42,899 nt of DNA, taken from assembly GCA_012520935.1 (NCBI GenBank), contig JAAYNG010000030.1, forward strand, positions 1 to 42,899. The letters run 5' to 3'. Below the pieces are notes generated by a model that worked only from the letters and a program-made list of their open reading frames with translations, was not told the DNA's origin and did no database searches. Source of the DNA: Tissierellia bacterium. Lineage in GTDB: Bacteria > Bacillota > Clostridia > Tissierellales > Peptoniphilaceae. The position numbers and the translations under genes are program-made. This document shows positions 18,211-36,812 of this stretch, piece after piece (positions within the stretch are counted from its first letter, which is position 1; each line of letters starts with the position of its first letter).

Positions 18211-18926
18211 TAAGGACAAGAGGAATTGTAATAAGGGAAATGAAATATCTAGAGTCCAGTAAAATCTTAACTGTACTCACAAAAAATTACGGCAAAATTT
18301 CTGTAATGGCTAGAGGGGTTTTAAGACCCAAGTCATTAAACACAAATTCTGCCTCTCTTTTTTCACTTTCAGAATTTGAATTTTATAAAGGGAGAAATAT
18401 ATATTACCTCAATTCTTCTAATATCTTAGAAATCTTTTATGGAATAAGGTCAGACAATAAAAAGTTCTTGTACGCATCATATTTTGCTGAATTGGTTAAT
18501 GAAACTATTTTACCGGGAGATGAAGCTAATAAAATATTTGAAATGTTGATAAAGGCTTTGCAAGTTTTAAACTATGGCGAAGCTTCTCCACTTTTGGTCC
18601 TTGCCTTTCAGTTGAAACATATATCAATACTTGGATTTCGACCGGAGCTTACTTCTTGTTTAGAATGTGGAAGGACAAATTCTACAGATTGGAGATTTAG
18701 TTTTGAAAGTGGGGGTATAATGTGTTCTGATTGTTATGATAGCTCTTCTGAGAAAATCAGTGGGGAGGATATTATACTTTTAAACAATCTACTGTTTGCA
18801 AAATTTGATGACATTTTTTCAATGGAAGAATTGACCTCACTTAAACTAGTAAATCTGATGAATAAATATATTGTGCGTTCTTTTGAATTAAAGAACTTTA
18901 AGAGCTTTAAATTTATTGAAGGTTAA
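18207..18926 (+). CDS. recO: DNA repair protein RecO
   Basis: Recombination mediator of 239 residues that works with RecF and RecR to load RecA. The N-terminal OB fold (GKISVMARGVLRPKS) is followed by a helical region with a zinc site (CLECG and CSDC). Length is typical. It is the last gene of the phoH-recO run before the glyQ promoter. Confidence 0.93.
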   Translation: MIRTRGIVIREMKYLESSKILTVLTKNYGKISVMARGVLRPKSLNTNSASLFSLSEFEFYKGRNIYYLNSSNILEIFYGIRSDNKKFLYASYFAELVNETILPGDEANKIFEMLIKALQVLNYGEASPLLVLAFQLKHISILGFRPELTSCLECGRTNSTDWRFSFESGGIMCSDCYDSSSEKISGEDIILLNNLLFAKFDDIFSMEELTSLKLVNLMNKYIVRSFELKNFKSFKFIEG

Positions 18927-18953: not shown

Positions 18954-18982
18954 TTGACAAGCTAAATAAACTTTGGTAAAAT
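18954..18982 (+). promoter_or_regulatory. Promoter for glyQS
   Basis: TTGACA (18954-18959), a 17-base spacer and TAAAAT (18977-18982) form a near-consensus sigma-A promoter. Transcription should begin near 18989, just before the T-box stem I. Confidence 0.88.
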
Positions 18983-18989
18983 TATGAAA

Positions 18990-19118
18990 AATTGATAGTT
19001 TCTGTGAGGAAGAGTAATGGCGACTTCTGAGAAACGCATCTAAAAGAGAGCTCAGGCTAATTAGGGTGGAACCGCGGAAGAATACCTTTCGTCCCTTGGG
19101 GGATGTTTGGTATTTTTT
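18990..19118 (+). promoter_or_regulatory. Glycine T-box riboswitch with ultrashort stem I
   Basis: tRNA-sensing leader of glyQS. The T-box core AGGGTGGAACCGCGG starts at 19063; its bulge UGGA (19067-19070) can pair with the UCCA end of tRNA-Gly. Stem I spans only 18998-19035: a 5-bp base (GTTTC/GAAAC), a 3-nt bulge, two G-A pairs typical of a kink-turn, a 5-bp helix, and an 11-nt terminal loop with AGTA and specifier GGC (19019-19021). The usual distal arm is missing. A terminator (AATACC 19081-19086 with GGTATT 19109-19114, then T's) competes with the antiterminator. Confidence 0.88.
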
Positions 19119-19151: not shown

Positions 19152-20030
19152 ATGTATTTTCAAGATTTGATGATGACTTTATTAAAGTATTGGGGGGACA
19201 AAGGCTGTATTGTATTAGAGCCTTATGATACTGAGAAGGGTGCCGGAACTATGAGTCCCCACACTTTTTTAAGGGCATTAGGTCCGGAACCATGGCATGT
19301 TGTTTATATTGAACCTTCTAGGAGGCCTGCTGATGCCAGGTATGGGGAAAATCCTAACAGGGTATACCAACATCATCAATTACAGGTAATTAACAAACCG
19401 TCCCCAGATGATATTCAAGACCAATACTTGGATAGTCTGAAGATTATTGGTATTGACCCTTTAAAACATGACATAAGATTTGTAGAAGACAACTGGGAGT
19501 CTCCAACCTTAGGAGCTTGGGGCCTGGGATGGGAAGTATGGCTAGATGGTATGGAAATAACCCAATATACTTACTTCCAACAGGTAGGGTCAATTAACTG
19601 CGAGTTGGAATCTTGCGAATTGACCTATGGTTTAGAGAGGATAGCCATGTATCTTCAGGATGTAAATAATGTCTTTGATATAAAGTGGAATGAGAAAATT
19701 ACTTATGGGGATATTTTTAAGAAGGCAGAATATGAGCACTCAGTATACAGTTTTGAAAAGGGCTCTATTGATACTTTAAAAAAATTATTTGACATGTATG
19801 AGGAAGAGGCCAATAAGATGTTAGCAGAGGACTTAGTAATACCTAGCTATGATTATATTTTAAAGTGTTCTCATACCTTTAATGTCCTTGATGCAAGAGG
19901 GGCAGTTTCGGTTTCAGAAAGAACAAAATATATAGGTAGGGTAAGGGCTTTAGCTAGGGAAGTTGCTAATGTATATATAAAACAGAGAGAAGCTTTAGGA
20001 TTTCCATTGATAAAGAAGTTGGAGGACTAA
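19152..20030 (+). CDS. glyQ: Glycyl-tRNA synthetase alpha subunit
   Basis: Catalytic subunit of the tetrameric glycyl-tRNA synthetase, 292 residues, carrying class II-type aminoacylation elements ([33 protein letters not shown]). The start ATG at 19152 follows GCGAGGA. It is controlled by the T-box upstream and lies one base before glyS. Confidence 0.97.
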
Positions 20031-20031
20031 A

Positions 20032-22104
20032 ATGACTAGTAAATATTTAATAGAAATAGGCGTTGAAGAACTACCTGCAACGCAAGTAGATGATGCATTA
20101 AACCAATTTAGCAATCTATATAAAAAATATTTAACAGAAGAGGATGTTTCTTTTGGAGAAGTAGAATCTTATGCCACGCCTAGAAGACTTACTCTTATAA
20201 TAAGTGACTTATCAAAGTCAGAATCAGATGAGATGGAAGAGGTAAAGGGTCCAGCCAAAAAGATATGTTTTGGGGAAGATGGTTCAATTTCAAAAGCTTT
20301 TTCAGGTTTTTTGAATTCTAAAGGCTTGGAAGAAAAGGATGTTTTCTTTAGAGAAATTAAGGGCGTTGAATATGCCTATGCCAATGTAGTTAAGAAGTCT
20401 AAGAGTCTTGAAGAAGTACTTTCTGAAATTGCCCCAAAGGCTATAAAGGGAATAAGCTTCCCTAAGTCAATGAGATGGGGTGGCAAGGATATTCGTTTCG
20501 CTAGACCAATTAGGTGGCTGATTTCTTTATTAAATGATAAGGTTATCCCTTTTGATTTGGAGGGCATTAAAGTTTCAAATGAAACCTACGGACATAGGTT
20601 TTTATCTAAGGGGAAAATTAAGATTAATACTCCTGACGAATATGTTGAGAAGCTAAAAGATGCTTATGTCATTGTGAATCAAGATGAGAGGAAAGATATT
20701 ATTATAGCAGGAGCAAATAGGCTTGCCAGAGAAAAGGCTGGCAATATTCAAAAAGATGAAGCCCTATTGAATGAGGTAGTATATATTATAGAATACCCGA
20801 CCTGCCTAATAGGAAGAATTAAAGAACAATATATGGAGTTGCCAGACATTGTTATTATTACACCTATGAAGGAACATCTAAGGTATTTTCCTGTTGTTGA
20901 TGATGATGAAAAGCTGATGCCTTACTTTGTAACTGTAAGAAATGGAAATGAAGACCATATTGATATTGTTACCCATGGAAACCAAATGGTACTTGACCCT
21001 AGACTTGAGGATGCGAAATTTTTCTATAATGAGGACTCAAATAAACCATTAATTGAATATGTAGATGATTTAAAGACTGTTGTATTCCAAGAAAAGTTGG
21101 GTACATTATATGATAAGACAAAAAGATTAGAAATACTTACTGAAAAGTATGCAAAGTTTTTATCTGTTGGGGTTGAAACTATAGAAAATGTTGTACGGGC
21201 AGCAACCTTATCAAAAGCAGACCTTTCTACTAAATTAGTTATTGAATTTACAGAACTACAAGGAAAAATGGGGAGGATTTATGCAAAAAATTCCGGAGAA
21301 AATGACCTTGTTTCAGTTGCAATAGAGGAGCAATACCTGCCAAGATTTGCAGGTGATTTACTTCCAGAAACTACAGCCGGTACACTTCTTAGTCTTGCAG
21401 ACAAGTTTGATACTATTTCAGGCATGTTTGCTGTTGGTATCAGACCAACAGGTTCAGTGGACCCATTTGCATTGAGGAGGGCAGCTATCGGAATAATAAA
21501 TATTATTTTAGATACAAACATAGATATTAGAATTGAAAACTTTATTAATGATGCTTTATATGTCTATGTTGAAGAACAAGGACTTACTTTTGATTATGAG
21601 GAAGTCAAGTCTTCAATAATTGACTTTATGAACGGTAGGTTCAAAAATCTATTAACGGATGAAGGTTTTAGGTATGACATAATTGACTCTGTATTAGAAA
21701 TGGATGAATCATTTCCTAATATTTATGACAGGGCAAGATTCATCAAGGAAAATATTGAAACAGATAATTTTAAAGATGCTATTGAAGGTCATACAAGAAT
21801 CTCTAACCTTGCGAGCAAGGCAGAGAGTAAAAATATTGATGAAAAAGTGTTAGAAAAAGAAGATTTGGAAATTTATGGCATTTTGGAAAATGCAGAAAAG
21901 AAGAATGAAGAGATTATCGAAAAGAGAGATTACGAATCAGGCTTAAATTTACTTGCTAGTTTAAAAAATCCAATTAATAAATATATGGATTCATCAATGA
22001 TTATGGTAGATAAAGAGTCTTTAAAAAATTCTAGGCTTGGAATATTGAAGAGACTTGAAGACTTGTTTAATTCTTTTTGCGATTTTTCAAAAATAGTAGA
22101 ATAA
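20032..22104 (+). CDS. glyS: Glycyl-tRNA synthetase beta subunit
   Basis: Beta subunit of 690 residues, required for tRNA binding. The N-terminus LIEIGVEELPA is the family hallmark, RWGGKDIRFARPIRW and an HD-like domain (DKFDTISGMFAVGIRPTGS) follow, and the C-terminus is the anticodon-binding region. GGAGG precedes the start. It is co-transcribed with glyQ and probably with the following regulator gene. Confidence 0.97.
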   Translation: MTSKYLIEIGVEELPATQVDDALNQFSNLYKKYLTEEDVSFGEVESYATPRRLTLIISDLSKSESDEMEEVKGPAKKICFGEDGSISKAFSGFLNSKGLEEKDVFFREIKGVEYAYANVVKKSKSLEEVLSEIAPKAIKGISFPKSMRWGGKDIRFARPIRWLISLLNDKVIPFDLEGIKVSNETYGHRFLSKGKIKINTPDEYVEKLKDAYVIVNQDERKDIIIAGANRLAREKAGNIQKDEALLNEVVYIIEYPTCLIGRIKEQYMELPDIVIITPMKEHLRYFPVVDDDEKLMPYFVTVRNGNEDHIDIVTHGNQMVLDPRLEDAKFFYNEDSNKPLIEYVDDLKTVVFQEKLGTLYDKTKRLEILTEKYAKFLSVGVETIENVVRAATLSKADLSTKLVIEFTELQGKMGRIYAKNSGENDLVSVAIEEQYLPRFAGDLLPETTAGTLLSLADKFDTISGMFAVGIRPTGSVDPFALRRAAIGIINIILDTNIDIRIENFINDALYVYVEEQGLTFDYEEVKSSIIDFMNGRFKNLLTDEGFRYDIIDSVLEMDESFPNIYDRARFIKENIETDNFKDAIEGHTRISNLASKAESKNIDEKVLEKEDLEIYGILENAEKKNEEIIEKRDYESGLNLLASLKNPINKYMDSSMIMVDKESLKNSRLGILKRLEDLFNSFCDFSKIVE

Positions 22105-36627: not shown

Positions 36628-36812
36628 AAAAAAAGTCCTCTTCAAAAGGACGAGAGAACCCGTGGTACCACCTTAATTAGACTCTTATTCCGTATCGTGG
36701 AAATATGCCGCCGTTTAGGAAACTCAAGAGCTGTATTTCGCTTTTTTACGAGTTTTCACCATCCACTCGCTCTCTGACAATAAGCTACTTATCTCTGTCA
36801 TAGTTTAATTTT
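36628..36812 (-). promoter_or_regulatory. Tyrosine T-box riboswitch with terminator
   Basis: tRNA-Tyr sensing leader of tyrS, read on the minus strand. Stem I contains AAGTAG on its 5' side, a distal arm with GGATGGTG, and specifier UAC (36735 to 36733, in AAATACAGC) on its 3' side. The core AAGGTGGTACCACGG lies near 36676-36660; its bulge UGGU (36670 to 36667) can pair with ACCA of tRNA-Tyr. The terminator is a 7-bp stem (36635-36651) followed by seven U's. This is a full-length T-box, unlike the glycine one. Confidence 0.92.

Follow-up and report, generated by a model that had tools for sequence, protein, structure and literature searches.

T-box leader RNAs are sorted into four published classes, of which I and II have a long stem I, and III and IV a short or intermediate one (PMC10482949). 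Stem II is a requirement of class III, which class IV is said to resemble, and binding gains strength from the distal motif, from stem II or from both (PMC10482949). The distal motif has been described as essential in transcriptional T-boxes and dispensable in translational ones (PMC7583486). In current reviews, a transcriptional T-box depends on its elbow-docking arm to capture tRNA quickly, and a T-box whose stem I is short depends on stem II.

The leader analysed here lies upstream of glyQS, within a window of 42,899 nucleotides (the whole stretch of DNA that was analysed) from a Tissierellia bacterium. The source genome, hereafter labelled G000, is a 2.04-Mb draft MAG in 167 contigs, 97% complete, with Tissierellia as its nearest relatives by GlyQ. 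Judged from its sequence and that of its relatives, the glyQS leader is probably a class II (glycine) transcriptional T-box that is miniaturised but functional.

Anatomy of the glyQS leader and its tRNA

The leader occupies the interval between recO and glyQ, in a locus in which the identities of era, recO, glyQ and glyS were confirmed (Table 1). The sigma-70 promoter ends just 5′ of stem I, which makes a distal arm upstream impossible; related glyQS leaders have a promoter in the same position relative to stem I. The gap between promoter and stem I is approximately 15 nt, with no AGAGA/GGUG distal motif and nothing like the distal loops. A hidden distal arm 5′ of stem I was ruled out by the promoter position, the absence of the motif and the end of recO at 18926, and an upstream start that adds a normal stem I, named in the preliminary description as a possible objection, is thus not supported.

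Stem I is formed by a 5-bp base, a kink-turn, a proximal helix of 4–5 bp and an 11-nt loop with both AGUA and GGC. Its 5′ side reads GTTTC (18998–19002), the 3-nt bulge TGT, GA and GGAAG, and its 3′ side CTTCT, GA and GAAAC (19031–19035). The kink-turn of this leader is assigned by homology, as ViennaRNA alone does not draw it; together with the proximal helix it is homologous in 50 further leaders. The preliminary description had proposed a 38-nt stem I with a kink-turn and with AGTA and GGC in an 11-nt terminal loop, and this layout is borne out by sequence, homology and covariation. After GGC, the loop has GA where the relatives have one purine, which places the specifier loop one base out of register with theirs. 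Strict register with the relatives would make the specifier GCG (Ala), a less likely choice given that UGGA fits U73 of tRNA-Gly and that the gene is glyQS. Also missing from the loop is the GAA strand that lies opposite AGUA in the specifier loops of full-length leaders.

Between stem I and stem III there is neither a stem II nor a IIA/B element, an absence that the preliminary description did not mention; a stem II inside the linker was ruled out by the length of the linker, just 13 nt, compared with 10–16 nt in 20 relatives. The T-box core agrees with every invariant column, and the energies of the antiterminator and the terminator are close to the means over 53 leaders (−8.8 and −17.5 kcal/mol, respectively). 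The specifier-to-UGG distance of 46 nt is slightly below the 49–57 nt of the relatives because stem III is shorter. Overall, the leader retains, intact and almost normally spaced, the elements for gripping both ends of the tRNA, and has lost the one for gripping its middle.

The gene for tRNA-Gly(GCC) is present twice in the genome, with U73 as the discriminator and the CCA not encoded. GGC is complementary to the anticodon GCC, and the bulge UGGA to U73-CCA, in agreement with the earlier proposal that specifier and bulge both fit tRNA-Gly. As in other T-boxes, a UGGN bulge is located in an antiterminator that excludes the terminator, and the specifier, the tRNA discriminator and the downstream glyQS genes agree with one another.

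Table 1 Positions of the glyQS leader elements and flanking genes in the window
Feature	Positions	Strand	Details
recO	ends 18926		upstream of the leader
Sigma-70 promoter	18954–18982	+	TTGACA-17-TAAAAT; 11/12 consensus matches; predicted start ~18989
Ultrashort stem I	18998–19035	+	38 nt; homology, covariation, covariance model
Kink-turn	19003–19007	+	bulge TGT + GA, paired across with GA 19029–19030
Terminal specifier loop	19013–19023	+	11 nt, AGTAATGGCGA
Specifier GGC	19019–19021	+	predicted to pair with anticodon GCC of tRNA-Gly
Single-stranded linker	19036–19048	+	13 nt; purine motif AAGAG at its end, before stem III
Stem III	19049–19058	+	AGC-TCAG-GCT; 10 nt, 3 bp (14–20 nt in relatives)
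Antiterminator with T-box bulge TGGAACC	19063–19096	+	AGGG-TGGAACC-GCGGAAG; −9.6 kcal/mol
Intrinsic terminator	19081–19118	+	−17.6 kcal/mol; exclusive with antiterminator
glyQ, glycyl-tRNA synthetase alpha	19152–20030	+	TIGR00388, E = 9.9e-147
glyS, glycyl-tRNA synthetase beta	20032–22104	+	TIGR00211, E = 4.5e-237

Relatives of the leader and the missing distal arm

The Rfam model RF00230 scores the glyQS leader at 38.1 bits (E = 7.5e-7), below its gathering threshold of 93 and with stem I misaligned. The score is low because the model expects a distal arm, and the threshold is also missed by other convincing T-boxes of this genome, such as tyrS at 86.4 bits. We built a covariance model from 20 full-length relatives, cut to the proximal part and aligned, with the glyQS leader of G000 left out. 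This proximal-only model matches 18997–19096 at 73.0 bits (E = 3.6e-15), compared with 21 bits for the tyrS T-box of this window. Such an E value, from a model made without the leader, rules out a chance hairpin. When the 20 relatives and the glyQS leader are taken together, the stem I base, the proximal helix and stem III covary, with 98.5% of cells paired; changes on both sides affect 38 cells, compared with a mean of 10.9 after shuffling. Two pairs of the stem I base, U-A (columns 5–37) and G-C (columns 2–40), occur in 0 of the 20 aligned relatives, so both sides of these pairs have changed together.

The proximal helix is separated from the specifier by 6 nt here, as opposed to 61–73 nt (median 69) in 49 of the 50 other leaders, and, with a single exception, every Tissierellales relative that was parsed carries a class II glyQS T-box of full length. 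In one of the best-matching genera, for example, the leader L128 (f4 g83) has a full distal arm flanked by GTATAC-GAT-GA-C-GAAG and GGCA-CTTC-G-GA-GTATAT. Because the relatives are full-length, the distal arm was lost in the lineage of G000, and the short stem I is, by this comparison of sequences, derived from full-length class II leaders. Homologous leaders with a full-length stem I and the same core had been put forward as a finding that would speak against the short form; they do exist, but they mark the short form as derived and do not make it unreal.

The shortening is specific to the glyQS leader, as the other T-boxes of the genome keep the distal arm. All nine other convincing ones have an arm of the AGAG type, including the tyrS T-box (36643–36810, minus strand), where AGAGA...GGTGAAA is present; the earlier claim that tyrS is full length and the shortening specific is therefore upheld by tyrS and eight further T-boxes. 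In the tyrS T-box itself, a proper stem II seems to be missing and stem III to be reduced almost to nothing (AAGAG-TCT-AA). A further T-box, in L007 (1501–1666, minus strand), has an apparent Ile specifier ATC; its stem I is long, its core GGTGGTATAGCG is non-standard and a stem III is apparently missing.

Decay is common among glycine leaders of Tissierellales. Twelve leaders upstream of glyQ (L094, L108, L112, L136, L147, L148, L149, L159, L162, L165, L169 and L175) are without an intact T-box core; they come from several families and form a graded series of T-box loss in which the terminator-like hairpin is retained and the promoter mostly so. In many genomes of the family of G000, f1 (for example, L097, L106 and L115), recO runs almost straight into glyQ, and some members of the family have no GlyQ match.

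Using one strict pattern with a glycine specifier, we found no second ultrashort glycine leader in 249 Tissierellales genomes. When 391 genomes of the class were searched with the model, the glyQS leader of G000 and the leader L095 of genome G056 ranked first; of 20 further high-ranking hits, 19 have a distal arm, and L229 matched in the 3′ half only. A helix-specific pattern, run on 398 genomes of the phylum, returned the glyQS leader of G000 and an unrelated-looking match without AGTA. These patterns are specific and would not catch an ultrashort leader whose helices or specifier differ, and the genomes are samples, so we describe the form as rare, not unique.

Working or decaying leader

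The distal arm of stem I was lost in this lineage, and stem III became shorter as well. The sequence comparisons show the anatomy, the fitting tRNA, the two exclusive structures, the origin from full-length leaders and the conserved core; from these we infer tRNA binding, the response to charging and the kinetics of the leader as follows. The anticodon of uncharged tRNA-Gly(GCC) would first pair with GGC in the terminal loop, and the kink-turn would place the acceptor end at the T-box bulge; pairing of UCCA with UGGA there would stabilise the antiterminator and allow glyQS to be transcribed. A charged tRNA would be unable to pair at the bulge, and the terminator would form. Lacking both the elbow dock and stem II, the leader would hold tRNA less tightly and for a shorter time than Bacillus glyQS does, by three G-C pairs at one end and by four pairs at the other; the three G-C specifier pairs may help capture.

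In single-molecule experiments on B. subtilis glyQS, a leader from which the distal motif was deleted has a kon half that of the native leader and a bound time of approximately 29 s for the main population (PMC5951919); since this construct binds, tRNA can bind without the elbow dock. A point mutation at the elbow contact lowers the affinity of the first step approximately 50-fold with the second step unaffected, and truncation of stem III has a minor effect (PMC6197855). Given both sets of data, a leader of this type plausibly works, with weaker first-step capture. We counted against a working leader the shifted specifier register, the missing GAA strand and its occurrence in a single genome, as well as the cost of the elbow mutation (PMC6197855) and the published need for a distal motif or stem II (PMC7583486, PMC10482949).

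As glycine T-boxes decay in related genomes, a point that the preliminary description did not raise, the possibility must be weighed that this leader is a relic too: that with the arm gone, tRNA control is lost and the leader is heading to a promoter-plus-terminator state. We regard this as unlikely. Decay is certainly frequent nearby, the twelve leaders described above having lost the intact core and not the terminator-like hairpin, and none of the other sampled genera in the family of G000 carries a T-box ahead of glyQ. A second short stem I, in L095 (1335–1445) from another family, has TAC at the specifier position, the core ACTGCG and a weakened antiterminator. Its stem I deletion is independent, because its close relatives L131, L134 and L138 are full-length, and it looks like early decay.

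With such decaying leaders as controls, we compared the 49 columns that are invariant in the 20 relatives. The glyQS leader keeps 48 of them, its sole miss being the specifier register shift, whereas L095 and L136 each keep 42, L148 keeps 35 and L094 keeps 30. Its GlyQ terminal branch, in a tree whose deep forks are weakly supported, is nonetheless long, at 0.31; those of the decaying L095 (0.037) and L136 (0.059) are both 5–8 times shorter. No invariant discriminator or kink-turn position has been lost over this long branch, and the base pairs of stem I have changed with compensation. Furthermore, the 5′ half of the antiterminator is conserved though it lies outside the terminator, and hence terminator function cannot account for it. 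A leader so far diverged, yet with its core unharmed, points indirectly to continued selection, which would most simply account for the conserved core in this one genome.

A leader that works, but captures tRNA through an unseen helper, for example, a kink-turn-binding protein or contacts made in place of the elbow dock by the enlarged loop, the linker or stem III, seems quite improbable to us. Such help would fit the fully kept kink-turn, the lack of both published reinforcing elements and the 11-nt loop, larger than the 5–6 nt of class III (PMC10482949), but this single sequence offers no sign of an additional element that covaries or is conserved. An assembly or binning artefact, in which approximately 60 nt of stem I were dropped from a MAG in 167 contigs of a genus for which no second genome turned up, is hardly credible, as the two arms do not correspond to a shortened version of any relative's leader (they differ in the base, the loop, the linker and stem III), every position of the stem base pairs within its own sequence and no direct repeat is seen by eye at the junction.

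Comparison with the published T-box classes

If the leader is indeed a working T-box, anticodon pairing, a kink-turn and acceptor-end pairing would suffice for co-transcriptional tRNA sensing in approximately 100 nt, and the leader would be a natural test of a minimal tRNA sensor. It could also serve as a compact engineering part, with stem I through the antiterminator again spanning approximately 100 nt. In an order with repeated loss of glycine T-boxes, it may show which module leaves first and which must remain.

With class II, represented by B. subtilis glyQS and the full-length Tissierellales leaders, the leader shares the GGC specifier, the kink-turn, a linker in place of stem II, stem III, the UGGA bulge, the terminator and glyQS downstream, and the retained parts are clearly homologous. 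As opposed to class II, where distal interdigitated T-loops dock the tRNA elbow, it has no such loops, its specifier is in a terminal loop and its stem III has 3 bp. Similar to the class III leaders of actinobacterial ileS, it has a short stem I with a kink-turn, no elbow dock and a specifier in the terminal loop. Class III, however, is mostly translational, needs stem II and has a loop of 5–6 nt (PMC10482949), whereas the glyQS leader has a terminator, no stem II and a loop of 11 nt. The preliminary description had likened the two; an ultrashort stem I coupled to a terminator is indeed present, but the architecture is not that of class III, because the stem II needed there is absent, and since the leader derives from class II, the likeness is independent. 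The closest laboratory counterpart is the engineered delta-DTM B. subtilis glyQS (PMC5951919), also a glycine T-box without a distal motif and with the other parts kept, but capped on stem I by a UUCG tetraloop, whereas the present leader is natural and has its own loop.

The leader thus has the glycine specificity, the lack of stem II and the transcriptional control of class II without the long stem I and distal T-loops, and the short stem I and terminal-loop specifier of class III without the stem II domain. It belongs to the T-box family and is of class II descent, but lacks one defining feature each of class II and class III, and it may be the smallest natural T-box. In the open-access literature, to which our search was limited, we found no natural transcriptional T-box without both the elbow dock and stem II. 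On the sequence comparisons made here, the leader is somewhat more likely than not a working natural T-box with neither element, a fifth architecture beyond the four published classes.
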